From Spirogloea muscicola (lineage: Eukaryota; Streptophyta; Zygnematophyceae; Spirogloeales; Spirogloeaceae): DNA of 64,000 nucleotides. How positions within the stretch are numbered: position 1 is the first letter of the stretch; each line of letters opens with the position of its first letter. This document shows, piece by piece, positions 2,261 through 43,635 of the stretch. The notes under the pieces were generated by a model. That model saw nothing but the letters and a program-made list of their open reading frames with translations, was not told the DNA's origin and did not search any database. The stretch lies in the NCBI GenBank assembly GCA_009602725.1, contig WELB01000109.1:73169-137168 (forward strand). The letters run 5' to 3'. The position numbers and the translations under genes were made by a program.

Positions 2261-5200
2261 TCACAAGACTGCGAGAGCTGGATCAGAGGTCAAAGCACTC
2301 CTTTGAGAGGAGTCTGCTGGCAGGAGATGGCACTGAGCGAAGTTCTGAAGTAGTTGATCAGCAAGCACCAGCGCAACCATGGCCTCCACCATGGGCACAG
2401 CTGCACTTGGACAAACGCAGGAAGAATTGGTCAATGCTCCTCAGGAAGCTTGCATGTCTCCCACCCAGAAGAGTCTGGCTTGCACATTTACATCAACCAA
2501 AGAGTGCTCACTCTTGATGTCAACACTGCGAGGCACAACGAGCCATGTGTCATGTGCCTATCAATCTCTCCTGACTCACCACGGGGAACCACACAAGGAT
2601 CGTGGCGCCCCCTTGCCCTCAGCTCAGTCTCCTGCTTGTCCCTCGTGACAGTTTTCTGACTCTTCTGCTACACACATCGTCCATCAGGGTCAATGAAATT
2701 CCTAGACTTAAATCAACATCTTGACAAGAAGCTGCACAGCCTGGGGTTATCTGATAAACCCAAGAGCTGGCAAAATGACAAGAGCTGCAAGCAGAGAAAG
2801 TGATGCAGCAATGCCACAGCCTTACAGTGATTGTTGATGTGGGCTTAAAAGCCAACCGCATGACAATGTTCTCTCCATTGGAGATCCCTCCCTGACAGCA
2901 GCTTGCAACCCGAGTGTTGACACCACAACGTATAATCTACTGAGCTGAGCATCCCACAGGAGATTGCTTGCATATACCAGACATTGCAGGACACAAACGA
3001 CTCATACCTGAACTCCACCTGACCGATTGGTACGAGTCCGAACATTGCCAGCTTCATCAACGTAAAACTCATCATTGTGTTCACTGCCGAGCATCCGGGT
3101 ACCTACAACCGAACAAGAGCAGATCTGATTGCAGAAGAGCTCAGCTCTTCTTTAGCATGCAGAAGGTGCCCATCTGTGGCTATGGACATCCAAGCTGATC
3201 TCCTGCATTGGCAATCAATACTGTTGGAAGTTACAAAGGTGTAGCTACAGGCTTTCTGAGCAGGTGCAGCAGAGGACAGAGACGGTGTAAGCACAAACGA
3301 CTCAACAGCAAACAGAGTCATCGAGGGGTCCTTTTGAGAAAGTTGTGAAAGAGATAGTAGGGCAAGTCTGCAGATGAACTACCAGCAAAGCCACTGCCAA
3401 TCTCGAAGCCCTTTGTAGCAGGCAATGACATGCAGGCCTTTGCGAGTTCTGCCTCCAGCTTGTCAAACACCGGAGATCCCAGGCCCTGCCAAGCACTACT
3501 GTAACAGCTGAGTTGCTTAAGGACGCACTTTCAGCTTTCCAGTACCACGTAAAGAGATAATTCAAGGCCTGGTTGATGAGGACTACAAAGGCAAGGATTG
3601 GATGAGCTAGGGGAGCCTATTGCAACCAGATGGCTAATTGTCTGCAGATAAGCTGCCTGAAAATGCTTCGGCTTGCTCATGACCCAGTACAAGAAGCTGG
3701 CAGTAGAGGATCAGTGCCCCACCTTGGGAACATTCCGAGCAATGCAGGTAACGACGCCCCCACAAGAGTCACCCTTCACCCTTATGGCATCAATGGCGGC
3801 TATCATATCTTCAGCTACCCTTGCATCCGGACACCTGATGATGTTACTTTCCACCTGCACAAACAGAAAGACGAACTGAACTGCCCTGGATCCCAGACTT
3901 TCTTGCCCTCTCAATGATGCCCCTCCAATAATTCTACTGAGGCCTTCACCTTGTGCAAGACATGCAGATGCACACCAAGTAACAATGAATAATCATCGAA
4001 CCTGCTCAAGGGAAAGGGTTCTGTAGTCCACAACATCCTCTGACAACTGCACATTGTGTACCTGTGACACAAATGCCAAAACCTGCAGCCACCAAGAAAA
4101 AGAACAACTGATTGGGGGAAAATTTTGCAAACCCTCTCTGCGGGCAGTATCTACTATGTCAGGCCATCAACTGCCACGTGTAAAGCTAATGCTCATCTAA
4201 GCCTTTACCTCACAACCAGAATGTGCCAGTAAGAGCTTCTTTGCAACTGCCCCAGCAGCCACTCGACCGATTGTCTCTCTCGCTGAAGATCTTCCCCCAC
4301 CCTAGTCAAGATGTGCATGTAGAATATGGATAGTGAATTCAGCAGTCTTGTAGTGCCAGGATAGAGTGCTCAGAAGCTAGACTTTGGCCCGTGAACCTCA
4401 AAGGCTATCCACATCAACCACATGACCCAATCCCTCGCAGCAAGACACCCAAAGTAGGGCCTTCGCAGTCTATGCTCAGGTACTACCAACAATTCACCGC
4501 CACATGGTCGCAGAACATTGTCAAGATTCACGGGTCCAGAGTTCTGTCCAGCCTGTGTGCGCTTTTAGAACACTTACTTGCACAGCGCGCACGCCATACT
4601 TGAAGTCGTACGTTGCATCTGCATGTGATGGTCTGTACGCAACTGCCATCTCCGAATAGTCCTGCCAGTCTTGGAGGTTGTGGTGGCACAGGCCAGCAAC
4701 TCCCTTAGGTGAGTGTCTGGTGAGAAGGAAGACCCTCTCGACGGGTGGTGGGCAGCCGGGGGCAAGCAAAGCTGCCCCCTAGCAGGCAATATGCAGCAGC
4801 TGTTTGCTCGTTCCCCGGAAGCACGGCTGTGCTATATGAGCACACGCTGTGGCTGCAAAGCCTTTCCCAGCTGGGGGGCGCACGTGGGTGCGAGACCGAT
4901 GCTTCGGCACGTCGCTTGCTCAAGGAGCTGCCATCGTGCTCGCAGCGGCCGGCCGGCCGGCCTGAGCGACGGTCAGCAAGATCGGGGGCGTCACAGCGGG
5001 CTTGCTGAAGGCCTGCAGTGGAGGAGAGCCCTCACCCCGCCACGTTGGTCGGTGTTGGGCACGGCGACCGCAATGGGCGTGCCCAGCGTGACACCTGCGA
5101 GGCGAAGAGGGCGGTGGGGAGAGCGGCCGAGCAGGTCGGCACCCGGTCGCCAGTGGCTCCCAGCAGAAGCGGCGCTGCCGCGCAAGGGCAGAAGGTGGAG

Positions 5201-5483
5201 GGAGGGGCGGACCGTCTGCGACGCCGGAGAGGATGCGGCAGGTGTCCGTCTCCTTGCGCGGCGTGGTGATGCGCGACTGGCCCGGCCGCCTGGCAAGGCG
5301 GCGAGTCGGGTTCAGCGGAAGTGGGGAGGCGGCCGCAGGAGCGGCGCGGCGCGCGAGGCGAGGAGAGGCGAGGCGAGGCGCGGCGGGCCCGAGGGAGGAG
5401 CACCTGCGGTCCAGGTCGGCCTGCATGTCGGCCTCGGAGAGCGGCAGGCGCGGCGGGCAGCCGTCGACGATGCAGCCGACGCN
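2261..5483 (-). CDS. Chorismate synthase, about 12 exons visible, N-terminal exon not found
   Basis: The enzyme converts EPSP to chorismate with reduced FMN, the last step of the shikimate pathway, normally in the plastid. Exons read on the minus strand are about 5483-5404, 5289-5213, 5094-5036, 4661-4578, 4301-4209, 4082-4002, 3854-3723, 3485-3383, 3102-3008, 2891-2826, 2661-2580 and 2400-2261. They splice in one frame through family signatures: [141 protein letters not shown] and [19 protein letters not shown]. The protein ends in a short divergent tail ([12 protein letters not shown]). The usual ~20-residue start with the TTYGESHG motif, plus any transit peptide, is absent upstream. A single N near base 5483 sits exactly where the preceding splice acceptor should be. 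Identity is firm; the 5' end is not. Confidence 0.93.
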
Positions 5484-6266
5484 GGGGCCGGGGGAGGCGC
5501 GGGGGAGGGGCGGCGGCGGCCATGGCCAGCACCCCGCGGCAGGGCGGCCGGGCGCGCGGGCCGTCTGGGGACGAGCCTGCTCCAGTAGGTGCAGTGGGCC
5601 TTGCTCCGTCTTGCTGGGCCAGCTTCTTCTTTGGACAGCAACGTGGGACCGAGGCCTCGGAGGCCGCCCCGCCCGCGTTGGATGCTCCCTCCAGAATGCG
5701 GCTCTCGCGTCATTTGCAGCATTTCACAGGCTCTACTCATACATCGGCATGCTGGGCGCACACAGAGCCTGGCTACTGGCTTGCGTGGTGCCGCTCCGGC
5801 TCCCCAGACATAGTCTGTCAGGTATGTATGTGCTCACTCGCGTCTGCAGTCCGGTTGTGTCTCTCGTTCTGTCACCATCTTAGAATCTCCTTTGTTCTCC
5901 TTACAAAAGAAGAAGAAGTGGCATTCCCAATCGGGGCGAGGGCTGCGAACAAACAGTGTACAGGTCTGGTCTGGCCTCACTTTCATCTCTTGCGACGCGC
6001 GCCCTTCCGCAAAGACTGAAAACACACCCTCAGCACACGCTTCTCCCTGCCCGGCCTGTGACCAGCCCGGGTGCTGAGCACGCTTGGCGCACCACGCGGC
6101 CTCCCATCTCTCTAACGCTGAGAGGCCTTCCCTTTGCCGCCAGCTCACCCGCGGCCTCCTCCCCCCGGTAGGTGCAAATGGCCAACAGCATCAGCATCTT
6201 CCGACTGCGAAGCACGCGGAATGCCAGCAAGAGGAACTTGAGCAGACACGAAGAGCTGCTACCAGC
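5484..6266. other. Space between chorismate synthase 5' end and phosphorylase 3' end
   Basis: The left part (to ~5560) is an extremely GC-rich run that should contain the chorismate synthase leader and first exon, but no conserved start of the protein can be read there. The rest is most likely the phosphorylase 3' UTR. A TGTAA on the minus strand at about 5900-5904 could serve as its poly(A) signal. No other gene is recognisable. Confidence 0.4.
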
Positions 6267-9200
6267 TCACACAACAGCCGCCGCCTCTGAACTCAAGGCA
6301 GCCGGGCGAGGACGCTCTGCAGCCAGCCTCGACGGCTTCGCATGCCAGATCTCTTCTGCATACTGCCGAATGGTGCGATCGGACGAGAACTTGGCACAAT
6401 TGGCAGTGCTTAAGATGCTCATCTGGGTCCACTTCGTCTGGTCTCTCCATGCTTCGTCCACCCGAGCCTGCCAGTGTCGCTTGGCTCGGCATTGATGAGA
6501 AGCAGGCAAGACTTTTGCAGTGATGTCCTGATTAGCAACCATGTGCCACAGGCGATGCATAGCAGCATGCAGTGCTAACTACCACAGATCTGCCCACGAT
6601 ATGCTGACATCATGCAGCGAGCCAAAAGCACATGAAGGGTGACTAGAGTTGGCAGTCATACCTGGGCATCGAGATAAGAGGCAAAGTCATTGGCGAGCAG
6701 GTAAAAGTCCCCCCCAGCCTCGCCATCCAAGGCCTCTACAATGGGGTGCAAGTAGTCAGCCCAGCCAAATTTACCCGTCCTAATTGACCTGCGAAAGTAC
6801 CAGTAGCAAAGAGGATCATTCAAAAGTCGTCCCTCCACATTCTGCATCAACTGTGGCAAACAGAGAAATGTCAGTGTCTCATTCTGGTCGCTGTGAATGC
6901 CAGCGTGATCATGTCAGGATCTCAGCTGAACATAATAGCGAGTTATGCAACCCATGAAGCCTACTCAAGAATAGCAGCAAATCGAGGATCAGGTCGCAAG
7001 TTGCGGCGCTCGGAGCGTAGCCTGGGCACGTCCTGAGCAAGAACCCCAAAAATGAACTGCAAGAAAGGCAGGTTGCCTAGTCAGGTGATGTGGTGTGGAC
7101 TCTTCTGCAGATTCCTCATTGCCAATGCACGTCTCGATTGCCAATGCACGTGCCGAGAAAACTGACCATGTTCTCGGCACCGATCTCTTCGCAGATCTCC
7201 ACATTGGCTCCATCCATCGTACCAATTATCAAACCCCCATTCATGCTGAACTTCATATTGCTCGTGCCTGATGCCTCTGTGCCAGCAGTGCTGCAGACGT
7301 GGCAAATGATGAGCACCTCAACCTCCCTCTTCCCATTCCCGGTACCTCAGCAGAGGATGTAGACTATAGGACATTTTCGAGGTCGAAGGCAGCGTAAGAG
7401 CACGTGGCAGTAGCAAGGTGAGGGATTTGGACAAACCAAAGGTCGAAGGCAGCGCAAGAGCATGTGGCAGTAGCAAGGTGAGGGATGTGGACAAACCTAA
7501 TGTGCTGAGACAGGTCGGATGCAGGAATGATGGTCTCTGCCAATGAGACATTATAGTCTGGGAGAAAGAAGACCTGAGACCGGAGGTGTGTGTGGTGAAG
7601 GCGCATTTAAAGCATGCACTTGACGCTGCACTTCCTGCCTCACTACATGCATGCCGAATTCTTATGCCGCAATGTAGCCCTTAGCGAGTTGTAGGCTCAG
7701 AGGCAAGGCGCACCTTCAGAAGGTCACCGATGTCAGTGTCTGTGTTGATTACATCCCCCACCGCGCTGACAAGCTTGATGATGCGCTTGGCCATCTCATA
7801 TCCAGGAGCAGCCTTTCCTCCAATCACAATGACCCGAGGAACCACTCCCTTTCTTTGCTCATTGTTCATGGCCTGCACGCTCAGCATTGCGCTTGTTTTG
7901 GGCGCTTGCCAGAGGTGGACCAGTAGGCAACATGAGTGAACACGAATAGGCAACATACATGAAGCTCAGAGAGAGGTTTCCCAGTGAAAATTACACCTTG
8001 ATCTGCTCATATCTGTGTATGACACTCAGAATGTTGAGGAGCTGCCGCTTGTATTCGTGGATGCGTTTGACTTGAATGTCAAAAAGCGCCGCTGTGTCCA
8101 CCTGCAAATGGAGTCAAATTGGAAGGTGATTCCTTGGTAATATTAAGTTGCTGCACCACAACTGCTTATAGGTGTTCAAGAGGACCTGACCTGGACAGAA
8201 AGAGGCTTCTCTGACCTTGACGTGGCAGAGCTTTTCTATAAGCTTGGCCAATTTCGCCTTGTTCTGCTGCTTCACCTGCATGCAGTAGATTTATAGCCAC
8301 TGTGAGAGGGTCCTGACCCAAGAACCTAGCATCAATTCATGCAGTCTTCATAATGTCCCTGCCTCAGAGCATCCAATCAGGCAACATGAGAAAGCCTGTC
8401 CGGTGCATGCTGTTTAGGGATGCATATGGTGCTTGCCTCATGCCACAAGCACAACGTCACAAGGAGTTTTGGTAGGACCATCTGCAGGACTCTTATGAAA
8501 GCACAGAAGTAGAACGGGGGGTAAATCCTTGCGAAGGATCACACCTGATGCCACTTCTCTTGGAAGGATGAGTCAGCTGCCTTGCTTTTCAGAGCTGAGA
8601 CAAGGGAGATATCTGTGATCCAAGCATCACTCCCCACTACGCTTGTGATGAGGTCCCTTAAACCGGGATTGCAGAATGCCAACCACCTCCGCTGCAGCAT
8701 GTCAGCAGCACAAAGACGACCAAGTATTAGTCAACCAACTACGTGGTATACAGCGGCTACCTGTGATCTTCGTTGGCGTGCCGAGACTCACCTGAGTAAC
8801 ACCATTGGTCTTATTTTGAAACTTGTGAGGCCATATTCCATAAAAGTCCTGCAAAGAAGAATGTTGGTGAGCATAATCTGAAGGAACCTATACAATTCCA
8901 TCATTGCTGCAGTGCGAAAGCAAGACTGCAACGAGCACCTGCAACATAGAGCTGACACAAGGAATCCCTTGCCTTGAAAATAGTGTGCTTAATGAGCTCG
9001 GAGTGGATTGCGGCCACTCCATTGACAGTATGTGATGCCACGAGAGCGAGATTTGCCATCCTCACATTCTGTGACAGCACTGACCAGATGCTGTTTGTCA
9101 ACGGAGCAGAATAAGAAGGCCACGACGTACCACAACGTAGCTCACTTGACAAGCTTTTGGAGCTGACCTTGACTTCACCCTCCTCGATGATGCTCATCCG

Positions 9201-12200
9201 GGACATCTTGCTAAAGTCATCGTTAACCATTCCTTTGATCTGCTGCAGAAAGTTGAAATTTATCTGGTAGATGATCTGTCACGATTCCAAAGGCAGCAGA
9301 CAACAGCATCACGACAGAGTCCACCCCCTGGAGTCCCCCTGCAAAGGCCAACCTGACCCAGGTTCGAATATTGCTCCTAAGCTTACAGCAGAGGCATGGG
9401 AGGCCCAAAAAAAGACAGGACGATTGAGACCTGCATGTGGCGAGGTAAAATTGTCTCAACAAGTGAGACTGGCCATTTCTCCAGGGCTTCAGGGAGCACG
9501 GTGTGATTGGTGAATGCAAATACTTTCTGGACTATTGCCCACGACTTAGTCCACCCTAGCCCCTCCTCGTCCATCAAGAGCCTCATAAGCTCTGCCACCC
9601 CAATAGTGGGATGCGTGTCATTGAGCTGCAAAGCAACCTGCATGGAAAACAGCAAGTAATGTGATCGTTTGACTTCTAAGTGAGCCAAGCAGGACCTTGA
9701 CATTGCCTGAAGATGCCCCGCTGAGCTTGCCTTCTCGGGAAGCCGTGTGAGCTCAATCTCCTTCTCCTTAAAGCGACGTATGATATCTTGAAGGGATGCA
9801 GACACCATGAAGAATTGCTGCTTCAAGCGCAGCTCCTTCCCCTGACCAATTCGCAGACCAGCAAGACATGGAAACAAAATTGGTGGAACAATCAGGCTGC
9901 GCCTTGCCTTCGCATGACTGATTCACAGGTGTGAATCTCTGAGCAGGGCAGAAGAATGTGCTCGCCCATAGAGAAGAGTGGCTGGCAGAGCAGAGCAGAG
10001 CAGTCATAGCAAGAGGGACTCACTTATACCTGGTAGGTGCGATCATCTGGGTAAAGCACACTGCTAATAGTTTCTGCCCTCTGCTTTGTCAAAATGGCTG
10101 CCACGTAGTCTCCTGTGTTGAATGACTGGAGGTCAAACTCTGTTGAGGGTCTGCCAGCCCAAAGCCGTAAATTGATTGTATTGCCAGTACCGTACCCTGG
10201 AATCGGGTTGTCATAGGCCACAGCTTCGATCTGGAAAGACAGGAGTCACCTTCAGCTTGCATCGCACAGCCTGAGCACAAAGCTGCCACAGCTTCATTGA
10301 ATGGCCGCTTATGAGAGAGTGGAGAAAACCCATGCTCTGCTCATGTAGATGAATTACTACACTCAGAAACTTGTGCTGACCTGCTCGCCAGCAACCCAAC
10401 TATACCGCTGCCGGTTTTGGTCGTCGGTGTAAGGCTCGACGTGTCCATAGAACTGTCCAATGCATGCCAACAGAGACCGACACAAGAAATGAGCAGTTTG
10501 TACGCGTGTCGTGACATGTAGAAGTCATCATGAAGCAGGGGCCTTCTGCAAGGTGATGATGAGCACTCACTTTGACATGGTAGCTGACATTCGTACGCTC
10601 TATCTCCCTGCAACTCCACTTAAGAAGCAGAGTCATCCTCGCATTTGTGATTAGATACGGGCTTGACTCATACAAGCCAGTGCTCCACGGATTCAATGAC
10701 ACAGGCTCACTCAATCTATAACTTATTTTGGAACTGCTCTTACAGGCACCACACATACAGCATAACGCACCAGGGATTGCCAACTGTAAGCCAGTAGTCA
10801 GGCTGCTCATGCTGGAAGCCATTCTCCAGTGTCTGCCTAAACATACCATATTGATAACGAATGCCATATCTGCCAGGCACCATGCAGTGATTTGGCTGTC
10901 AACATCTGTGAGAAACTATCTTTGGCAGTACTGAGCTGAGAACAGCTGCCACATAAGTGAAGACAAGTGCAGCCATCGCTTGCAACAAGCGGAGAGCTCC
11001 GAGAGAGAGATGTGACTACCCCCAGGCTGGGTAGTTGAGAGAGGCGAGGCTGTCGAGGAAACAAGCTGCCAGTCTGCAACACAGTCAAACACCTGTGATG
11101 AGCACTGACCCTCAGGTAACAGCATTGGGGGTTGCACGTCAACATCTAGCCCACATGAATATTCCAGCTCAACGAGCACCTTCCCAGCCCTCCATTGCCC
11201 AGTGCGGCATCACGCTCCTGCAGATTGCATGGCAAACAGTTAAGCATGCTTGCCAGATTCATCGCCCTTCACTGCTCCAGGATGGCGGCAGTGCATAAGA
11301 TGATTGTGTGAATGTGGAATCCAGGAGGAAGACGTAGATTAGAATACTGACTGAAGTGTACCTGCTCCACAATTGTTTCCAGATTGTAACCAAGTTGAGT
11401 GAGGGCCTCGGTGTACAGGTTCTTGACATTCAAGTTGTAGAGCGAGTTGAGTAGAGATCGACCTGATCCCACCTCGCAAGGAAAGGCAAGGAAAGGCAGG
11501 TCTTGTGAGGATTCAATCAATGCAGACGACAGTGGACAAGCATGCCAAGCTTAACCAGCCAAGATGCCACGATACATGGGACTTGCTGAGGCAAGACTAT
11601 AAGCTGTGCACATACCCATGAGAAATTCCATGGACAGGTAATAAATCCTCTTTGGATCGACTTGGCGAAAGTGTTGTTCAGTGTCATTCCAGCTCTCGAT
11701 CAGCCGATCGCGAACGCTGTGCGCTACAGCCTGCACAGGATCATCCAATACAAAAGCAGCGTCGTTAGGCACAGATTGGAAAATGTGAGCACGGTATGCA
11801 GTACCTGAAAGGCCGCCAGTGTGTCTTGAGTCTTGATTGATCAGAATGGGCGGGCAGACCGACCACCACGTACCTGGTAAGCCTCGTAACTGTCAAAATT
11901 GTAGCGGGATCGCGCCAGCGTGTACTCCACGTGATTCACAATGGCCTCCTGGACCGACAAGACGTCATTGCGGATGTATGTGTCTTTGAGCTGGTGCACA
12001 AGTGCCTTCCGGCCCAGCTCCTCGCCCTCGAGCCCCTCGAACACCCTGCCGGGCCTTCTCGCAGGCCCGCCAATGTCCCTGCAGTGAGCCTCACTAGGTG
12101 ATCAGCAACAGATTGCCCGCTCTCGCTGTCCCGGTATCAGCACTGTCGGATCAATGCAGGCTCCGATTGCCGCGGCAGTGGAAAGTCAGAATGGTCCGAG

Positions 12201-12775
12201 AAAGATACATCTGTGTCCAGTGAAGCACGAGTTGTGAGGCGGCAGGGGCGTTTGGCATTACGCGGAAATGCAGTTGGAAAGGTCTTGGAGGCGCGACTCC
12301 ACCAGTCGGATGTCGGCAGGCGAGAGGAGCTTGCCACCGGTGGCATCGGTGACGTAGAAGGTGTCAGTGGCCTGGTCGCCCTCAGTGTCCACAACGGCTC
12401 GCATCACCTGCAGGTTCAGCTCCCTGCGGCGGCAGGAAGCGCCACAACGGCGCGAGGTCAGCGGCGGGCGGGGCGGCCTGGAATGGCGGGGGCAGCCTTG
12501 TCGCGCCGCGCAGCGACTGCGGGCATGCAGCTGATGACCGGCCTGAAGGCGGTGGTGATCTTGGTGAGGAGGCCCGGGCGGTTCTGCGTCTCGATACGGA
12601 TGGCCGTCCAGTGCTCGTGCTCGTCGTTGGAGACGGAGACTCGCAGCGCGGCGGGCGGGGAGGCCAGGACGGCGGCGCGGGCAGGGCCGGGCCCGAGGGT
12701 GGCCCGGGGAGAGGCCAGAGGGCCGCGGCGCGGGCGGGNGGGGGCCGCGGGCAGCGCGGCGCGGGGGGCGGCCAT
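6267..12775 (-). CDS. Alpha-glucan (starch/glycogen) phosphorylase with N-terminal ACT domain, about 25 exons
   Basis: The enzyme releases glucose-1-phosphate from alpha-1,4-glucan ends using PLP. The start chosen is ATG at 12775-12773 (GCCATGGCC context), giving an Ala/Arg/Pro-rich leader like a plastid transit peptide. Exons 1-2 (to about 12256) encode an ACT-like domain: [19 protein letters not shown], then [19 protein letters not shown] and [18 protein letters not shown]. Exon 2 (donor GTAATG) joins exon 3 (from about 12053) in frame at the true phosphorylase start, [18 protein letters not shown]. The body then follows in family order: [127 protein letters not shown] and the PLP-lysine loop [11 protein letters not shown]. 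The C terminus is [19 protein letters not shown]. The large insertion typical of plant plastid L-type enzymes is not seen. The exon 1/2 junction appears to need a GC donor. One N (12740) lies in the leader. Confidence 0.93.
7381..7500. repeat. Tandem 60-bp duplication at a phosphorylase exon/intron edge
   Basis: Two adjacent 60-base units (7381-7440 and 7441-7500) differ at only four or so positions. On the gene's strand the second unit contains the last four exon bases and the GTTTGTCC donor after DLSQHI. The first unit, deeper in the intron, carries another GTTTGTCC. Confidence 0.9.
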
Positions 12776-12924: not shown

Positions 12925-13400
12925 TGTAGCCTTGTGTAGCTGCTTTCTTTCTTTGTGTGGTTTGGTTTCTTAGCGCTTCCTCTGGCTTCCTCTGTTTTGT
13001 CTGCACCCGACTCTGCCTGAACAATGTACTGGCTTGAATTGGCCTCCCTTTCAATTCATGCGCCCCGCGCGCCTTCTCTCTCATCCTCAAAACAAAGTGC
13101 TCGCCCATGGCGAAGAAGAAGGCTCGCCCATATAGAGAAAGAAGAAAGTGCTCGCCCATTGAGAATAGGGGCTGGAACAACCAGCCCGAAAAAGAGGGCC
13201 TGGCAAAGCCAGCCCAAAAACAATGGACAATGTCCAAAGCCAAAGAAAGAGGTGCCGAAAAAGAGAATGTGCTCGCCCATAGAGAAGAAAGTGCGCGCCC
13301 ATAGAGAAAGAAGAAGAAGTGGCACTCCCAATGGGGGCAAGGGCTGCGAAAAGCCAGCCCAAAAAGAATTCACAAAGGGTCAGAGGGGCCTAAGAGCCTG
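12925..13400. repeat. Cluster of LINE 3'-tail repeats with recurring GCTCGCCCAT motifs
   Basis: The segment starts with a tail variant (TTAGCGCTTCCTCTGG; similar text at ~19060 and, reversed, at ~15500). It then carries a unit containing ATTGGCCTCCCTTTCAAT, also found near 17450, 17960, 18040 and 18440. From 13095 the minus-strand tail unit repeats several times, with GCTCGCCCAT spaced by AGAGAAGAA-type purine tracts and the core GGCAAAGCCAGCCC. Open frames here are low-complexity and not credible genes. Confidence 0.7.
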
Positions 13401-13550
13401 TTTGCAGCGAGCTCAGGCTAATGCCTTGCATCAGAAAGCTGGGCGAGCTCTAGTTGGTGACAGAAGGGCTTCGTACCTGACATCTAGTATTCATGCATCG
13501 GTTAGCGACCTTTATGTTTTGACCCGTGGATTTTGAGCGGGTCAACCTGC
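13401..13550 (+). mobile_element. LINE 3'-end fragment
   Basis: The reading QKAGRALVGDRRASYL ending in SDLYVLTRGF matches the C-terminal end shared by the LINE copies in this window (AGRALAAASGFRQGDVF ... SDLHLLTRGY). It is strongly 5'-truncated. Confidence 0.65.
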
Positions 13551-13669
13551 TGTATGTCATGTTGATATCTAGATGTGCTTGCTTGCCTTTGTACTTGGCC
13601 ATTGGCCTATGTTTGTTTCAAATACACGAAATTTTCCTAAGAGCGGTGAGCAGCTACAAAGGCAAAGGG
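13551..13669. other. Spacer between LINE fragments
   Basis: A short, somewhat AT-richer stretch with no recognisable coding or repeat content. Confidence 0.4.
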
Positions 13670-14110
13670 CTCGCCCAGCTACAAAGGGGCCTGAGGATGC
13701 TATGGGAAAACAGGGGCAGGATGGATCACTCAGTAAGTACGAGTGAGGAGCCTCAGATCCGACAGACTAGCTGCCGGGAAGCTATCACCCTGACAAAAGC
13801 CAGAGCCCGCAGCGAGAGCACGGCCAGCTCGCAGATGCAGAGCGTGGGCCATGGACCGCTGCAGGGATACAGAGAGAAGAAAGAAGAAAAGCGCAGCCGA
13901 ATTAAGTGGTGGCTGGGAGAAGCCAGCCCAGAAGGAATGGACAAGGAGAAAGTGCTCGCCCATTGAGAAGAGGGGCTGGCAAAGCCAGCCCAAAAAGAAT
14001 GGACGATGTCCAAAGCCAAAGAAAGAGATGCCAAAGAAGGACTACTCTACCAAACACAACAGCACACTAGGGAAGCTCAATACTGTAGCGGGCACGCCCC
14101 TCCGGTAAAG
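13670..14110 (-). mobile_element. LINE 3'-end fragment with tail repeat
   Basis: Minus-strand reading LHLRAGRALAAGSGF then SDLRLLTRTY is the LINE C terminus (about 13866-13730). Bases 13670-13866 recur almost unchanged at 15177-15374. The tail core (GCTCGCCCATTGAGAAGAGG, AATGGACGATGTCC) follows at 13960-14040. Confidence 0.65.
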
Positions 14111-14229
14111 AGTCAGGACATAACATAACCGTAATTGTAAAGCGTCAGTCCAGCCGACAGCCACCTGTACATAGGTGGGCCTGCGGGCATAATCCGTGGC
14201 CCTCTTGGGCTAGTGGGTGTGGTTCCCGT

Positions 14230-14810
14230 TACAATACCCACGAGTGAGCAACAGCAGGTCAGAATAGCTCGATGCGGGGAAGGAGGCGCTCCGCCGAGAC
14301 CCGGAGGCGGCGGCCAGAGCGCGTCCTGCGCGCGTGTGGACGCGAGGGCAAGGGAACGTTAGAACGAGACTGCCAGGCGCATGCGAAAGACTTGGGCGAG
14401 CGACCCGGCGGCGTTGAAGCGGGCAGCGCCCCGGGCTGACCCGACCTCCGGTCAATAGCCTGACGGGCAAGCCGCTGGAGGAGATCCAGCCAGCGGCTGC
14501 CGAACGCCCCGTGGACGTCGATCGCCAAGGCCGCGAACTCGTCGCCAACCGGGTGGTCAGCGTATTTGCGCTCTTTTCCCCGGGCCGCCAGGCCTACCGC
14601 ATGCCCTGCAAGCGACGCCGACCTGGTGGGGTTGCCGGAGTCGAAGCAGTCTCTTGTCACGACGAGAAAGGGGGCCAGCAAAGCCAGCCCAGAAAGAATG
14701 GACAATGTCAAAAGCCGGAAAATACAGAAAAACACACAGCTAGGCAGCTAGAGAACAAGACACGACGAAGTCACAGGAAGCTCAATACCCCCGGGTGAGC
14801 AACATCAAGT
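14230..14810 (-). mobile_element. LINE 3'-end fragment, includes end of endonuclease region
   Basis: Minus strand reads KERKYADHPVGDEFAALAID, HGAFGSRWLDLLQRLARQAI and later the usual C terminus near 14240-14400, in more than one frame. It is a 5'-truncated, frame-broken LINE copy. Tail core sequence lies to its right near 14670-14730. Confidence 0.65.
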
Positions 14811-14812
14811 CA

Positions 14813-14996
14813 GAGAAGAGTGACTGGCAAAGCCAGCCCAAAAAGAATGGACAATATCCCAAGCCAAGAAAGAGGAGCCGAAAAAGGAACTACACTAAAG
14901 GCATGGACTGTAGTGTAATTCTTTTTCGGCTCCTCTTTCTTTGGCTTGGGATATTGTCCATTCTTTTTGGGCTGGCTTTGCCAGCCACTCCTCTCT
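14813..14996. repeat. Large foldback of LINE tail repeat (arms about 85 bp)
   Basis: Arms at about 14813-14896 and 14908-14996 are near-perfect reverse complements around a centre reading GGCATGGAC. Each arm is one copy of the tail unit (TTTGGCTTGGGATATTGTCC, GGGCTGGCTTTGCCAGCC). The same unit occurs singly at 45297-45400. Confidence 0.9.
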
Positions 14997-15029
14997 ATGG
15001 GCGAGCACATTCTTTGGACTAGGACGAAG

Positions 15030-15560
15030 ACATCAGCAAGAGGACGCTCAGTAACCTCTAGTCAGGAGATGCAAGTCGGAGTAGCTAGCCGAGGGAAAGA
15101 GAAGTGGTACTCCAATGGGGGCAAGGGCTGCGAGAAGCCAGCCCAAAAGAATTGACGAAGGTGCGAAGGGGCCTAAGAGCGTTGAGCAGCTACAAAGGGG
15201 CCTGAGGATGCGATGGGAAAAACAAGGGGAGGATGGATCACTCAGTAATTACGAGTGAGGAGCCTCAGATCCGACAGACTAGCTGCCGGGAAGCTATCAC
15301 CCTGACGAAAGCCAGAGGCCGCAGCAAGAGCACGGCCAGCACGCAGATGCAGAGCGTGGGCCATGGACCGCTGGAGGAACACTGACAATCTCATCCGGTA
15401 CACCTGAGCCCACGAGAGAGGGGGCTCGCCCTTTGAGGATAGGGGCTGGAAAAGCCAGCCCAAAAAAGAATGAACAAAGTACGAGAAGGGGGGGGGCCAG
15501 AGGAAGCGCTAAGAAAATAAAGCACACAAAGAAAGAAAGCAGCTGCAAATCACTCAGCAA
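15030..15560 (-). mobile_element. LINE 3'-end fragment with tail repeats
   Basis: Minus strand reads LHLRAGRALAAASGFRQGDS then SDLRLLTRNY near 15242-15400. Tail sequences occur on both sides (15100-15160 and 15420-15545, the latter with a GGGGGGGG run). Bases 15177-15374 are a near-duplicate of 13670-13866. Confidence 0.65.
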
Positions 15561-15604
15561 ACTCTGCTAAGCAGCCGCAAATCAGAGAGGCTAGGGTCCT
15601 GAAA

Positions 15605-17040
15605 GTGGTCCCCCTGGCCAGAGCCAGAGGCAGCAGCAAGAACCCGGCCGGCACGAAGGTGCAGCGCACGGGCCATCGACCGCTGCAGCGAGACGGCCAG
15701 GCGCATGCGATAAAATTGCGCCAGCGACCCTGCTGCAGGGAAGTCTACAGGCTCCCCATGAAAGCGACGGGCGATGGTGTGGCGGGCGAGCTGGGTGAGC
15801 AGCTCGAGCCACCGAGCGCCAGCGCCCCATGGGTGTCTATGGCCAACGGGAAGAACTTGTCTGCCGGCCGATGGTCAGCGTATTTGAGCTCCTTGGCGCG
15901 AGCGGCGCCGGCGACCGCATACCCAGCCTTGGTGGCACACTGGGCTGGGTGGGAGCGGTCGAAGGCGTCGGTGGTCACCACGTCCAGGAGAAGACGTGGC
16001 CCGCCGGCCTGTGGGGTGGCCATTAGGTCTACGCGCCGGGCGTGGAGACCGTCGGCCCTGTCCTGGAGCGGCATGACGCCGGGGTGCTCTGCAGCCACCG
16101 AGAAGCCCGCTTCCGCCAGGATGCCATGCATCGCATTGCGGAGGCGGTCGTGGGCCGCCGTCCGCTCGCCGCCGCGGGCGCAGCGCAGGACGTGGGCGGC
16201 CAGCTCCCCAGACTCGGCCCCTCGCTCACCGCCTTCGCATTGTCGCACGCCCTGGAGACAAGGAGGCGGCAGTCCCAGGAGCCGGTGGACTGCGGTGCGA
16301 AATACCTCATCGGGAAGCGTGAGGGCGTTGGTGATGGGGAGGGCCTGAAGCCACGCCGCTGCTCCCGGGGACGAGGCAGATTGAAGTCTCGCGCGCCCGC
16401 GCAGGTAGGCCTCAGGGAGCTGCAGCAAGGCGGTGGTGTAGGCGGCCTTGTCGACGACGGCCGCAAAGCGCGCTTGGACGCGCAGGTCAGCGGTGTACGC
16501 GAGGTGCGCAAAGGAGACCGCCTGGCCGGCCATGTCGGGGTGCGCCGCGAGCAGCTCCTGGTGGGCGGTGCGAAGCGCCACCTGGAACGGCAGCGCGCCC
16601 TTGTCCACCTCCACCACCGCCTGCTCCAGTGCACGCCCCGGCCATGGACCATGAAGCGCTGAGCCACGGAGGCGGCAGTCTGCGCCCAGCTGCCGAGGTA
16701 GGCAGCCCGGCATGAGCGGACGAGCGGGCGCAGGCCGAGACCCCCGTGGCTGATGGGTAGCGTCGCCTGGTGGATAGCGGCTGGCGACTGGGGGAAGCCC
16801 TGGTGGCGGACCAGGGCCGCCAAGCTCGCCACTATGCCCGCGTCGAAAGCCTCGTACGCCGCCAATGCCTCTGGGGACGGCGGAGTGGCCCCCGTCAAGT
16901 ACTGGGGACGCTGCCCGATGGCCTTGGTCAGCATGGCCAACGACAGCTGCATATCCTCCAGCTCGGGGAGCCGGGCCGCCGGGCTGAAGGTGCTCCGCGA
17001 GGCGGGCTCGCAGCTGCCCCTCCAGCTGCCCACGAGCCAG
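15605..17040 (-). mobile_element. LINE C-terminal half: RT thumb, Cys/His motif, restriction-like endonuclease
   Basis: A long minus-strand open frame (17085-15745) encodes the part of a LINE ORF after the RT core. In order: LPELEDMQLSLAMLTKAIGQ-type thumb sequence, the Cys/His cluster CEGGERGAESGELAAHVLRC, then HDRLRNAMHGILAEAGF, RRVDLMATP, LLLDVVTTDAFD and KELKYADH. The spacing of R-x-D, D-V-V and K-x-x-K-Y-A-D resembles the PD-(D/E)XK endonuclease of R2/NeSL/CRE-type LINEs. The RT core itself is missing, so the copy is 5'-truncated at about 17040, where it abuts an older LINE fragment. The assignment to a restriction-like class is inferred from motif layout. Confidence 0.75.
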
Positions 17041-17160
17041 TTGCATTAAAGTCAGCCGGCTCGCCGCGCCGGCGGGATACAGCACGCCGTGCGAGCCTGG
17101 CCAGCAGGTCGAGCCACTGGGACCCGAGAGCCCCTTGCACGTCCACTGCCAGGGAAATTA
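17041..17160 (-). mobile_element. LINE fragment (C-terminal linker region)
   Basis: Minus-strand LISLAVDVQGALGSQWLDLL then RRRGEPADFNATGSW is the LINE region after the endonuclease. It is cut on both sides by other copies of the same family in the same orientation. Confidence 0.65.
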
Positions 17161-23816: not shown

Positions 23817-26800
23817 TGTAATAAATATCGCCCTGAACACGCAGTTAGAGGGAGAGAGTCCTTATTGTATTCGAGCATAGGGGGTTTAGGAGCCAACCCA
23901 CTACACAAGGAAGCACTAGCGCATAGCGCAGCGGAAGACAGGCCCGGTGGCGCCGCCTTGACGGCGACTCCAGCTCCTGGGCGCAGGCCGGCGCAGCAGG
24001 CCCCGCAGCGCAGTGCGGCGGCGGCTGCGGCGGCGAGCAGTGGCAAGGCTGCTCCAAGGCTTCCTCGGCCCGAACTGATTGTGGAGCCTCTGCCCCTGAG
24101 GCCCCTTGGTGCTTCCCCGTGCCACCCCCCCTCCAGGGGTGTGAGCAGGTTCGCCCCAAGGCCCGCCTTGCGGCAGGCCCAAAGATCCTCCCTTGGCCGG
24201 GCGGATCCTTGAGGGGTATTTCCGGACGGGCGGGACCCGCACCCGGGCGGGCCACCGACCAGCCAGCCTGGCAGCTGGCAGGGCACCTGGCCCAAATAAT
24301 CGGTCATGTAATGCCAACAGAGCCATGTGGTTTGACTAAACGGCTGTTTCACTACATACCTCCCCACTCTGGTGTTCACGTCCTCGGGAACTCGAGAGAA
24401 CAACCGACAGATTTTACACCCGACGGTTGCTGCCTCGACCAAGCCTAGGAGCATTACCAACCTTGGCCAGGTATTCCCTGAGAGCATCCGGACAATTTGC
24501 CAAATTGGCCGCAGGCTCCCACGTGTTGTGCTCAGGCCCATACCCGAGCCACTTCACCAGATACTCACGGGTCTTACGCCCTCGAGGCTTGTCCCTATGA
24601 GACAGATCTCTTCCACCTCAAACTCAAGAGCATTTTCGATCAGTAGTGGAGGTGGGGGCGGTTGGACACGACCATCCGAAAGGAAGGCCCTCAGCTGAGA
24701 CACATGGAAGACGTTATGTACCTTCCAATGCACTGGTGTCTTGAGCTCGTAGGACACCGTGCCCACAAGGCGTACTACGGCAAATGGTCCAACCCACTTG
24801 GGTAGCAACTTGCGCGTACCCACAGCCCGCAAGGATAAGTGCTTTGTGCTAAGTAGCACTTGTGCACCAACATCGAAAGAGACGTCCTTCCGATGTTTGT
24901 CAGCATAAGCCTTCTGACGACTCTGAGCAATTTCCAAGAATTGCCGAGCTCGTCTCTGAGCCTCCAAGAGGGTCCCTGTAAAGGCGACCGCGGCGGGAAC
25001 TCGTTCCGGCCTCCCACCTGAAGTGGAGCTCGGGGATGCTGACCATAGTTGAGGAAGAATGGAGTCTCTTTGGTGGACGCATGATAGGCATTGTTCACAG
25101 CATATTCAGCTGGAGCCAAGTACTCATCCCAGTCAGTCTGGCTGGGGTTGACGAAGTGCCTTAACATGTCCTCGAGAACTCGGTTCGTTCGCTCAGTTTG
25201 GCCATCAGTTTGTGGGTGAAAGGCTGTGGACATGGCTTGTTTCGTGCCAATAATTTTGCAAACTTCTGTCCAGAAGTGACCTATAAAGCGAGGATCGCGG
25301 TCCGAGACCATCGCTCAGGTACGCCATGCAATTTCCACACTTTATCCACAAAGATGCCAGCGAAATCCTTCGCAGAAACCCGCGTAGTTGTGGGAGCAAA
25401 ATGCACCATTTTACTGAAGCGATCCACAAAGACAACAATGGCATCATAGCCATTCCGCGTCGTAGGCAATTGTGTGATGAAATCCACACTTACATCAGAC
25501 CAATTTCGCTCCGGAATCTGCAAGGGCTGAAGTAAACCGGCAGGTTTGCCAGGGATTGCCTTACTACGCTGGCATGTGGCACAACTGACCACAAAAGCGT
25601 GGACCTGGGCTGAAAAGCCCGGCCACCAAAAGAGGCGTCGCACAGCCTTTTGGGTTTTGCCCACGCCCAGATGACCACTGTAAGGCGGATCATGCAGCTC
25701 CTGCATGATGTCAGTGCGCAAGACATTGCAGTCCGGGACCACAATAGCGTCACCTTGCCACCAAAAGCCTTTGTCATCGGTGAGGGAGCTCACGTTGGCG
25801 GCCTCAGCAAACCACGGGTCGGTGCCATACCCTTGACGGATACGGACATAGAGCTCAGAGAGGTCTGCCGTGGGTAGCTCAGAAGCTTGACGAGTCGGAC
25901 GCAATCCAGCAGCCCGCACTCCAGAAGCATTCAAGGTGGCCAACGCAGCAGCGCCGTGAATGTTGTCAAGTGCTGCAGCTGCTGCGTGACAATCACTTGT
26001 ACGCAAAGCGGTCGAAGTGCGCATCTAACCAGCAAGAATTGACATACCTCGGGCATGTCGTAGGCAAGGACGGAATACGTTTTGATCCCAAGAAGACTTC
26101 GGTCTTCCGGGATTGGCCTGTGCCAAAGACGGTCCCTGCATTGCGCTCCTTTTTGGGCTTTGCAAACTACTTTCGAAAGTTCCTACAAGGCTATGGTAAC
26201 TTGGCACTTCCTCTTACGAAATTGACTCGTAAGGACGTCCCTTGGGAATGGTCGTCCGAATGCCAGAGTGGATTTGAGGAAATCCAGCACGCGCTGACAT
26301 CTCCGCCTGTGCTGGCCTTTCCTCGGGAAGGCGTGCCATATGAGCTTGTCTGCGATGCCTCTTTGACCGGCATTGGTGCCGTGCTCTTGCAAGAGGGTCA
26401 CCCGTTAGCGTTTGAGAGTCGCCTGCTCATACCTGCAGGGCGAAATTACACTACGGGCGAGCAGGAATTGCTGGCTGTGGTGCACGCCTTACGTGTCTGG
26501 CGTTGCTACCTGGAAGGTGTGGCATTTACGGTTGTCACGGATCATTGCCCGTTGACATATTCCACACACAGCAGCATTTGACTCGGCGTCAAGCTCGATG
26601 GTCGGAGTGCATGGCAGGCACAATTCGACTTCCAATGGGTTTATCGCCCTGGCCGTCTTCATGTTGCGGACCCTGTGAGTCGCGTGATCCTCAGGTGTTT
26701 TGCTGAACACGAGGATATCGTCCAGATATACCAGCACAAAATGATATAGAGCAAGGGGCCCTAGACCCTCGACATCACCGCCTGGAAAGTCGCCGGTGCA

Positions 26801-29696
26801 TTGGTTAGACCAAAGCTCAGCACTTTGAACTGAAAATGTCCAAGCGGCGTCCGAAACGCTGACTTCGGAACATCTGCAGGCGTGATGCGAATTTGATGAT
26901 ACCCACTTGCCAGGTCCAGGGAGCTAAACACCGTAGCCCCTGCGAGCCAATCGAACAGATCATATATTCGAGGCAATGGATATCGATTCTTGATGAAAAG
27001 CTCGTTCAAAGCCCGGTAATCGATGCACAGCCGTAGAGTGCCATCCTTCTTTTTGACAAGGAGAATGGGTGCTCCGTATGGCGACTGAGAGGGCTCAATG
27101 TAGCCCTACGCCAGCAGGTCCTCGACCTGGGATTGCATCTCTCGAAATTCGAGAGGGCTAAGCCGGTACATGGGACGGTAAGGCGGGTGAGCGCCTGGCT
27201 CCAATGGAAGTGTGTGAGCCACACCTCGGTGAGGAGGGAGACCGTCCGGAAGAGAGTCGGGAAAAACGTCCGCAAACTCATCCAGCAGCTTATCAAGAAT
27301 TTTGCCATGTGAATCCGCAGCATTCACACACAAGTCAGGCTTGGACTCGTCATGATTGAACGCCACCATCACAAGAAATGCCGTCTCGACAGTGTTCTGG
27401 TGAATCAGCCGCTTCATCTGCATGGCGGACAGCAGAATGGGAGCCCCTGCCGCCAGCGGCGGTGCACAGGGAAGCTGCTTGCATAGGACAAGGCGCCGTG
27501 CGCCACGTTGTACCGTGCAAGTTCGGCGTTCATAGTCAAGGCATGCTGATGTGGCACGAAGCCAATCATCTCCCAATATGACATCAAAAGCGACGGACAA
27601 CGCAATTGTGTAGCAAAGCACCTCGGCTTTATATTGCTGAATGCAAATTGAAATTGAGCACAAACCCAGCACATTGGTGGGGTGGCCATCGGCCAATGTC
27701 ACTCTAGATAGACCGTCTGCTTGCAAATGCAAGCCAGCGGAGCACACCAAATCCCTACTCACGAAGGACACTGAGGCCCCTGAGTCTACGAGGAATCTAG
27801 CCGGTGCCGAAGCAACCAGCCCCTCAAACAGCATAGTATGTCCACCATGCACGCTGCCAAGAAATGAGTGCGAGCGACGTGGACCCGGACCGAGGTCGGG
27901 TAAGGCCTATGCCCATAAGCATCAACGCTACGCCTGAGGAGCGTGTGACCTGCCTCGTGCGAGGACAGCAGGTCCATCCCCAGCGGAGCTCGTTTAGGTA
28001 CGCCCCGCCTCTGCGGCACAATGAAGAACAGCATTTCTTCAGCCTCACGGCGCTCAGGCCAGCTCAAGTAAAACATCAGCAGCCATTTGCAAAACATTGT
28101 GGGCAACCCACACAAATAGAGGCCCTCCAGCCTCCAAGCCTTGCAGATAGGGAGCGCACAACCGGCACGGTTGGCGGCCAAGCAATGCCAGCAAGATCGA
28201 ACAACTCAAGTGCGTCTGGCTGAATGATGTGGCGCCCAGAGGCAAGGGTTAAGCACTCACGCTTCCCCTTGAAGTTGCCCTTGTGTCCTGGCCCATTGGG
28301 CGCTGTGGACGTGGCTTCGAAGCCGCCAGGCAGTCCTTGATCTGGTGGCTCTTGGCGTTGCAGCCATAGCAGCCACCACCTCCTGCCACTCGCGGGCCAG
28401 CACCTGTCACGTGTGGCTTCTGAAAGCCGCCATGGGAATGAGAGTTAGAGCCCTCGTTAGGGTTAAGCCTCTTCCTGTCCCGCTGTGCCTCGGCAGGTCC
28501 GCGTACGTCCAGCAGGGGACGCTTGCCACGCCCAAGGTCCGGCATTCCGCTGAGCCAAGCCTGGAGCTCGCTCTGATCATCCTGACCGGCAAATGGCGCG
28601 TGGGCCTTAGCATATCCATGCTTAGGGTTACCACCGCCCTTGCACGCCAAGTGCATTGCGGAATCGACCTGTAGCAGACCCTGCTCCCCGCGCAACCTCG
28701 CGAGGAGACGGTAGCCGCGGTCCATCGCAGGCTGGACTGCTGCCAGATGCTGCGCGAGGAGTGCTATGCGTTGCACCTCCCCAGCCGATATGCCCTCTTG
28801 GCCCGCGGCCTCAGGCTCGGCGCGCCCCCTGTGGGCGTACCCTGCAGCAGCCACCGCCTCAGCAGTTGGCCCTGCAATGTGGGCCTCGTGCTCCTCGCTC
28901 ATCCTCGCAAGGAGGCGGTACAGCACGCGCGGAACTGCGTCCGCCGCAGCCTGGACAGCCGCCAGGTCCTGCGCGAGGAGTGCGGTCCGTTGCACATCCT
29001 CCGCCGACAAGCCTTGGGCTCCGAGCTCGGCATACCCTCCCAGGGCTTGCCGCGCAGCGACCACTGCATCCACAGTATCTGGCCCTGCCACGGCCGCTGT
29101 ATCCACAGCCGACCGTCCTAGAGCATCCACGGCGGTCTGCTCCGCGGCGCGGACCGCTGCTGATGCCATGAGCTTGGTGTCGAGCTTGGACAGCAACATG
29201 TGGACGTAGTCCTAAAAATCGCTGTACGCATGCGAATCACGTCCAGTTCGTTTGGGCGTTTAACTCGGCATGCACTTCGCCGTACATGCTCGGTAAGGAC
29301 CGCACAAAGAAGTCCCAATGTCTGTAGATCCCCGGAGTGACGACTTCTTCACACTTTCCCACCACAGGGCGGGATTGCCGGAGAGATAAGTAGCTGCAAG
29401 ACCAACGCGGTGTTACGTGCTCGTACCACACTGCACGAACCAAGCCCTTATTTCTGCCAGCCAGGAATTGAGGCCGCCTTGAAAGGACTGAACTTTGCTG
29501 GCAAGGCGGGCTTAGCACGCCCCACCTGCGACTCACGGAGTGTGCCCTTGAGCTTCCGGATGGGCCGCTGGTGCCAGATCGACGGCTCAGCGGCGGGTCT
29601 GCATTCTCTTGAGCGGTTGGATAATAGGATGATGACCGCCCGCCGATGTCAGATCGACGACGCAGCGGCAACAGCGCAATTACCTGACCGGGGCTG
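23817..29696 (-). mobile_element. Ty3/gypsy fossil with group A 3' LTR, integrase, RT/RNase H, protease and gag
   Basis: The 3' LTR is 23817-24356. Leftwards from gag the minus-strand parts are: gag 29690-28249 with CCHC knuckle CYGCNAKSHQIKDC; aspartic protease (FLVDSGASVSFVS) near 27850-27400; RT 27110-26700 ([26 protein letters not shown]); integrase 25975-25000 with HHCC and DDE-region text; and a chromodomain-like end 24970-24480. The RT tail and RNase H part (FLGFANYFRKFLQGYG, TDHCPLTYSTH) lie on the plus strand at about 25976-26690. No 5' LTR is visible; a LINE piece starts at ~29697. It is a broken fossil with several breaks. All major domains remain recognisable, so it is not very old. 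Confidence 0.88.
28249..29199 (-). pseudogene. Gypsy gag region with CCHC zinc knuckle and internal duplication
   Basis: An Ala-rich open stretch of about 316 codons lies in the element above. A block with SAEDVQRTALLAQDLAAVQA is echoed about 80 residues later by SAGEVQRIALLAQHLAAVQP, so the N-terminal half looks duplicated. The gag regions at 32.7 and 39.8 kb carry only one such block. The knuckle is near the C terminus. Part of a decayed element. Confidence 0.75.
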
Positions 29697-42705: not shown

Positions 42706-43635
42706 AGTCCATTACGTCAGTCTCTGCAGACAGATGCAGCATGATTGACTACTACTTTTGGGGTCGTCGCAAACCCCGTCTTTGCCCACAACGCCCTACT
42801 ACTGGTGACATACACTTGGCATACAAGTGATTTTCAAATCGCAAAGGTAGCACTAGCTGCAGGTGCACTTCGTGATCCTCGAGTGTCATACGAACACCGA
42901 TATGTCATCCAAGTGTACCAGCACAGAGTCATACTATGGGGCCAAGGACTCCCACTGTCACAGTCTGACACGGGGCTGGAAGTGTCCGAGCGGCGCACAG
43001 AAAGCCAACTCGGAACTTTCCCAGGCGTGACACAAAGGTGGTGATAAGCTGTCACGAACCGAGGAAGCAAAGCACGCTTGCTTCTCTAACAATCACACAG
43101 ATCATCAATGCCAGGCAAAGGGCATTGGCACTTGACAGTGAGCTTGTTTAGAGCTCGATGCTGGATGCACATCCAATGACAACTACAGTGCTTCACAAGG
43201 AAGCGGATAGGTGCACCATACGGCGACTAAGGAGGCTCACTTTGCCCGTACTTTAGCAAGTCCGCCACTTGGGATTGCTTCTCTCAACACTTGAGAGTAC
43301 TCAGCCGATACAGAGGGCAGAACGGCGGCAGAGCGCTGGATGTCATTGAGCCACGTCGAATGAGGGGGCACCCGTCCAGAGGAGTTCGAAAATTACATCC
43401 AACTCCTTCGGTGACTGATTGTCAAGAGCCGCAGCAGGTGAGGCAATCACACGTACTACAGAGTCAGGGGGAGACTCATTACCCAAACATCAGATTTAGA
43501 TACACAGCAAAGCTGGTTGCGTCTGAAGGGACGTCTTCATCAACAGCTGTTGGTCGCAGAGTGCAAGGATGCTGTTCCAAAGCATCCACTATAAGTCAAT
43601 CATTTGAGATTCAAAAGCGGAGACGAGCACTCACC
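42706..43635 (-). mobile_element. Right part of the older gypsy fossil (RT and upstream)
   Basis: Degenerate minus-strand RT text (VLVYLDD-like at about 42910, the RT start region at 43080-43300) continues the element of 35876-38545. Its left edge pairs with the TSD of the nested element. The right edge is cut by a LINE at ~43636. Close relatives lie at 50011-50960 and 56353-56590. Confidence 0.75.

Follow-up and report, generated by a model that had tools for sequence, protein, structure and literature searches.

The window, that is the whole 64,000-nucleotide stretch of DNA that was analysed, contains on its minus strand a gene predicted to encode an alpha-glucan phosphorylase with an ACT domain at its N-terminus. 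The gene runs from 12775 to 6267 and is modelled with 25 coding exons and a product of 984 residues, in which the ACT domain precedes the phosphorylase domain within one protein. Judged by architecture and class, this is very probably a PHOB/PHO3-type alpha-glucan phosphorylase, where PHOB and PHO3 are compared by their published description. The fusion as such is not new, since it has been described for Chlamydomonas and some plants, among them Lotus, and the window gene is a further example of a poorly understood enzyme. What is added here is the GlnD-type character that sequence comparison assigns to the ACT domain of the phosphorylase. The class has been in print since 2015-2016, and from the match to the GlnD sensor a first candidate ligand can be named.

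Exon Structure and Domain Order

The 25 exons were modelled manually on genomic sequence alone, guided by open frames, splice sites and homology, and the joins were checked by script. Exon 1 (12543..12775; all exons lie on the minus strand) begins with the start codon at 12775 and encodes an N-terminal stretch followed by the beginning of the ACT domain. It ends in a GC donor (GCCGGT), which opens a GC-AG intron. Exon 2 (12262..12423) encodes the second part of the ACT domain and has the donor GTAATG. Intron 2 (12046..12261) separates the ACT domain from the phosphorylase, and exon 3 (11874..12045) encodes a linker and the N-terminal part of the phosphorylase, up to SYEAYQ. The catalytic core of the phosphorylase is spread over exons 4-23 (6965..11730), which include the segment aligned to a solved phosphorylase. 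Exon 24 (6662..6788) encodes a C-terminal phosphorylase segment and is joined to exon 23 at 6965/6788, with a GT donor and the acceptor TTTCGCAG. Exon 25 (6267..6467) is the final coding exon and closes with a TGA stop.

The two protein stretches that were quoted in the initial annotation were both found on the minus strand. An in-frame splice from exon 2 into the phosphorylase, with a GTAATG donor and a CCGGCAG acceptor, had also been described. The frame and both sites were recovered in our model, but the junction had been placed at 12256/12053 and really lies at 12262/12045. The first 44 residues of the product include 14 alanines, 10 prolines and 6 arginines. This N-terminal stretch is a possible plastid transit peptide, as judged by its composition only.

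The ACT Domain

Neither exon 1 alone (77 aa) nor exon 2 alone (54 aa) gave a Pfam match at E <= 0.01. When joined (132 aa), they matched PF01842 (ACT) with E 4.1e-7 and 30.1 bits, which bears out the initial annotation's reading of the two exons as one ACT domain. In the full model the ACT match has E 2.3e-6 and 27.7 bits; both scores are little above the gathering cut-off of 27. PF00343 (Phosphorylase) scores 1058 bits over residues 248-960. The proposed ACT-phosphorylase fusion, for which a domain search on the spliced protein had been named as a check, was thus found in the spliced model.

The best NCBIfam match of the 91-aa ACT piece was the C-terminal ACT domain of PII-uridylyltransferase (GlnD), with E 1.8e-17 over positions 841-921 of a profile of 940; in the whole protein the GlnD match had E 9.0e-16. 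The match covers the C-terminal ACT part only, with 62 bits at best against a cut-off of 959 for full-length GlnD. When genome contigs were searched with the ACT query, one relative was found, a planctomycete GlnD, and its second ACT domain aligns without gaps over 66 residues with 48% identity. The local alignment score was 146 for the second ACT domain of this GlnD and 45 for the first, compared with maxima of 50 and 49 in 200 shuffles each. Among plasmid records, 30 matched the ACT query; in the best 20 of these 30, four carry an annotated feature, which is PII uridylyltransferase each time, and 16 carry none. The Pfam ACR9 model matched the 132-aa piece weakly and below its cut-off (E 0.00028). 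Viral contigs contained no relatives of the ACT query, and known structures no significant one (two matches at E <= 1, the best at 0.057). These comparisons point to an ACT domain of the GlnD type.

The likeness to the C-terminal ACT domain of bacterial GlnD and to the plant ACR family lies in the sequence of the ACT domain. Unlike GlnD and ACR proteins, the window protein has a single ACT domain attached to a phosphorylase, with no nucleotidyltransferase and no further ACT repeats. Since the closest similarity reported for the plant proteins ACR11 and ACR12 is likewise to the ACT domains of GlnD (PMC3173338, accessible part of the text), the domain could equally well derive from an ACR-like plastid protein.

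The Phosphorylase Domain and the L78 Site

The full model matched TIGR02093 with 1150 bits against a cut-off of 553, over residues 162-960. Among solved structures, 48 distinct sequences match, and in all 48 the best stretch starts at residue 157 at the earliest. Therefore, no solved structure covers the ACT part by its best stretch. The best structure match was 4bqe (973 bits), a cytosolic alpha-glucan phosphorylase 2 that we take to be an Arabidopsis protein. In the alignment, a 10-residue segment of the catalytic core is identical to 4bqe, and this segment presumably holds the cofactor lysine.

A second aligned stretch was given by 5 of the 48 structures. In the model with exon 24 starting at 6850 (see section “Integrity of the Gene Model”), the starts are 159 and 161 for 5lr8 and 9lpw. 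Between the two aligned halves, these two structures exceed the query by 85 and 88 residues; in the same model, the L78 site of the query counts 22 residues in the alignment with 5lr8 (107 residues) and 17 in that with 9lpw (105 residues). We take both to be plastidial PHO1, a reading that agrees with the insert, although their records say only alpha-1,4 glucan phosphorylase. The catalytic core is shared with plastidial PHO1 and cytosolic PHO2, but PHO1 has the L78 insert and the window phosphorylase, as modelled, lacks it.

The catalytic segment was also used for a scan of the IMG/VR viral contigs, which gave one locus (L001). This locus, at 5326..7779 of a 128 kb contig, encodes an 817-aa glycogen phosphorylase that is 44% identical over the 173-residue query segment.

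Relation to Described ACT Phosphorylases

The closest published description is that of Lotus japonicus PHO3 (Qin et al., 2016; PMC5005325, cited throughout from the accessible part of its text). There, PHO3 and Chlamydomonas PHOB/STA4 are described as plastidial enzymes with an N-terminal ACT domain, and the absence of L78 is stated at least for PHO3; among the Lotus phosphorylases the ACT domain is reported for PHO3 only. The likeness of the window protein to LjPHO3 and to Chlamydomonas PHOB/STA4, compared by description, consists of an N-terminal ACT domain followed by a phosphorylase without L78. The same text cites Wu et al. (2015) for a subclade that includes Ostreococcus and Chlamydomonas PHOB, and it already proposes regulation of PHOB by amino acids. 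According to this literature, other green algae share the ACT-phosphorylase layout, a point on which the initial annotation had made no claim. Exons are many in both cases, with 15-20 in the Lotus genes (PMC5005325, accessible part) and 25 as modelled in the window gene.

Overexpression of LjPHO3 led to reduced leaf starch, and crude E. coli extracts with full-length PHO3 had raised activity (PMC5005325). Purified LjPHO3 was inactive in both directions, and the authors propose a need for additional factors; the accessible text therefore leaves the catalytic role of the PHO3/PHOB family itself unproven. When nitrogen is deficient, mutation of PHOB leads to less starch (Dauvillee et al., 2006, as related in the accessible part of PMC5005325). 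A 2025 review reports reduced starch in the Chlamydomonas mutant and the absence of the insert from algal Pho1, and the term ‘ACT domain’ is absent from its accessible text (PMC12267944). Starch breakdown, the process named in the initial annotation, is one of two candidate roles: by analogy, the Chlamydomonas PHOB mutant points to starch synthesis and the Lotus overexpression to breakdown. In a literature search with few subscription papers within reach, the accessible texts contained no ligand test for the ACT domain of these phosphorylases and no mention of its likeness to GlnD. Among the texts consulted, only PMC5005325 describes such a fusion.

Possible Role of the ACT Domain

How starch storage is coupled to nitrogen supply in algae and plants is, to our knowledge, not settled. 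Animal phosphorylases have a control segment at their N-terminal end, and in the window enzyme the ACT domain is located at the same end. We propose that a single transcript would encode a probable transit peptide, a single GlnD-type ACT domain, a short linker and a phosphorylase without L78, and that the enzyme would work in the plastid. The ACT domain would bind a small molecule, in the most likely case an amino acid that signals nitrogen status, and ligand binding would alter the activity of the enzyme or its assembly with partners from the N-terminal side. Starch turnover would thereby track nitrogen supply. We hold the ligand-control step of this proposal tentatively, at somewhat less than an even chance.

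Control by an amino acid or by nitrogen had been suggested in the initial annotation, and the idea is reasonable. The neighbouring chorismate synthase gene had been taken as a hint to the ligand, which fails because the ACT domain appears to be of the GlnD type and because, in an intron-rich eukaryote, the proximity of two genes carries little weight. What had been observed in the sequence was thus confirmed, and of the interpretation the fusion holds by sequence while the chorismate hint does not.

Glutamine is the first ligand candidate, since the ACT domains of GlnD are regarded as glutamine sensors (PMC3173338, accessible part). In a lone ACT domain, ligand specificity may have shifted or binding may have been lost. 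In one study of Arabidopsis acr11 mutants, in which a GlnD-like ACT protein is missing, glutamine synthetase activity was normal, and the authors infer a mechanism unlike that of GlnD (PMC12702975, accessible part). By analogy, this result would count against GlnD-like ligand control here. It seems improbable that the phosphorylase ACT domain both has a common origin with the glutamine-sensing ACT domain of GlnD and has kept the sensing of glutamine or of the glutamine/2-oxoglutarate balance. If so, nitrogen status would act on starch metabolism in plastids through a direct allosteric connection, and this could explain the starch defect of Chlamydomonas PHOB mutants under nitrogen starvation. 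Control of starch metabolism by glutamine or nitrogen is put forward here as a hypothesis.

ACT domains are also able to serve as protein-protein contacts. The fusion could be real and the ACT domain could be a ligand-free module for structure or assembly, a credible reading that we would nevertheless bet against. Next to the capacity of ACT domains for such contacts, the inactivity of purified LjPHO3 and the additional factors proposed by its authors (PMC5005325, accessible part) would fit a module of this kind. On the other hand, the NRPGLL turn of the window protein keeps a glycine that is called nearly invariant and is tied to the ligand site in another ACT enzyme (PMC3173338, accessible part), which speaks for ligand binding.

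The Junction Between the ACT and Phosphorylase Exons

Both the ligand-control proposal and the structural reading take the ACT domain and the phosphorylase to be encoded by one gene. The points on start codon, splicing and GC content favour a single gene, as far as can be judged from the DNA. Intron 2 contains 12 AG dinucleotides, of which six are in phase, and five of these six are stop-free (12093, 12078, 12057, 12054 and 12045). The ACT-phosphorylase frame therefore stays open whichever of the five acceptors is used. The acceptor of exon 3 is uncertain: the site at 12078 (CTCACTGCAG) is by eye at least as plausible as CCGGCAG at 12045, and it would add 11 residues. In the frame of exon 3, no ATG was found as far back as the preceding stop, and therefore an upstream exon must supply the start. 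Third-position GC has values of 0.94, 0.79, 0.79 and 0.58 for exons 1-4 and does not jump at the ACT/phosphorylase junction; in later exons it is 0.37-0.80 (model with exon 24 at 6850). The usual polyadenylation motif of chlorophytes, TGTAA, was sought in intron 2 and is absent. This absence is weak evidence because the motif also occurs in three later introns (10744, 9387 and 7995) and in exon 20 (7753); past the stop it is present once, downstream of exon 25 at 5905.

It is very unlikely that exons 1 and 2 form a separate small gene for an ACT protein and that the phosphorylase starts elsewhere. Such a gene could end where exon 2, if not spliced, reads through into a TAA at the donor, right after residue 132, and the G+C content of exon 1 (0.78) is far above that of later exons. 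However, a phase-2 GTAA donor yields TAA on read-through in every case, and the biggest GC drop is at the boundary of exons 1 and 2, which lies within the ACT domain. A GC-rich stretch (0.67-0.78) is likewise found upstream of the chorismate synthase segments. Furthermore, the reading frame of exon 3 offers the phosphorylase no visible start codon further upstream, and published relatives carry the same ACT-phosphorylase fusion (PMC5005325, accessible part). The missing TGTAA in intron 2 adds a weak point in the same direction.

Integrity of the Gene Model

The single gene is also predicted to be intact. Its 984-residue product is read in an uninterrupted frame from the start codon at 12775 to the stop that ends at 6267. 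In the final model, AG is found at each of the 24 acceptors and GT at 21 of the 24 donors; the other three donors, at introns 1, 12 and 15, are GC. These site counts indicate consistency and are not independent proof, because the sites were picked to fit open frames and homology.

Two alternatives for the junction of exons 23 and 24 were rejected. When exon 24 started at 6850, the junction with exon 23 had no GT or GC donor, an in-frame TAG was present and about 21 residues were left without a counterpart in 4bqe. The second alternative, 6965/6890, was rejected on the same grounds. Relative to the model with the 6850 start, the junction 6965/6788 raised the scores from 1040 to 1058 bits for PF00343, from 1131 to 1150 bits for TIGR02093 and from 950 to 973 bits for 4bqe. 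Because this canonical junction raised the scores and removed the extra residues, the suspicion of a damaged gene was dropped. A decayed or misassembled copy, to which a single ambiguous base of exon 1 might point, as might the prediction of the exons from genomic sequence, is extremely unlikely in view of 984 residues that are open throughout, GT/GC-AG sites at all junctions and an alignment to a solved phosphorylase that spans its whole catalytic domain.

Other Features of the Window

Pieces of a chorismate synthase (PF01264) are encoded on the strand of the phosphorylase gene, downstream of it, in two open frames at 3318..3530 and 3711..3992, with E 6e-10 and 5e-9. The window has only two N bases, one at 5483, upstream of the chorismate synthase segments, and one at 12739 in exon 1, and both have very GC-rich surroundings. 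RNA families (at the gathering threshold) and tRNAs were sought in the window and none were found.

Retrotransposon parts are located at 25784..26581 (+), 27106..27906 (-) and 39639..40937 (+); by Pfam they comprise the RNase H domain of reverse transcriptase, a retroviral-type aspartyl protease and gag. Two long open frames, at 15745..17157 (-) and 43231..45219 (+), appear by eye to be related and gave no Pfam match at E <= 0.01. As a guess, they are possibly the C-terminal parts of non-LTR retrotransposon proteins.

Lastly, the region just upstream of the phosphorylase gene, at 12935..15697, is dense in direct and inverted repeats. It contains, for example, seven copies, at least 65% alike, of a 32-nt unit starting with AAGCCAGCCC, and a pair of inverted arms at 14812-14900 and 14908-14996, separated by 7 nt and 83% complementary.
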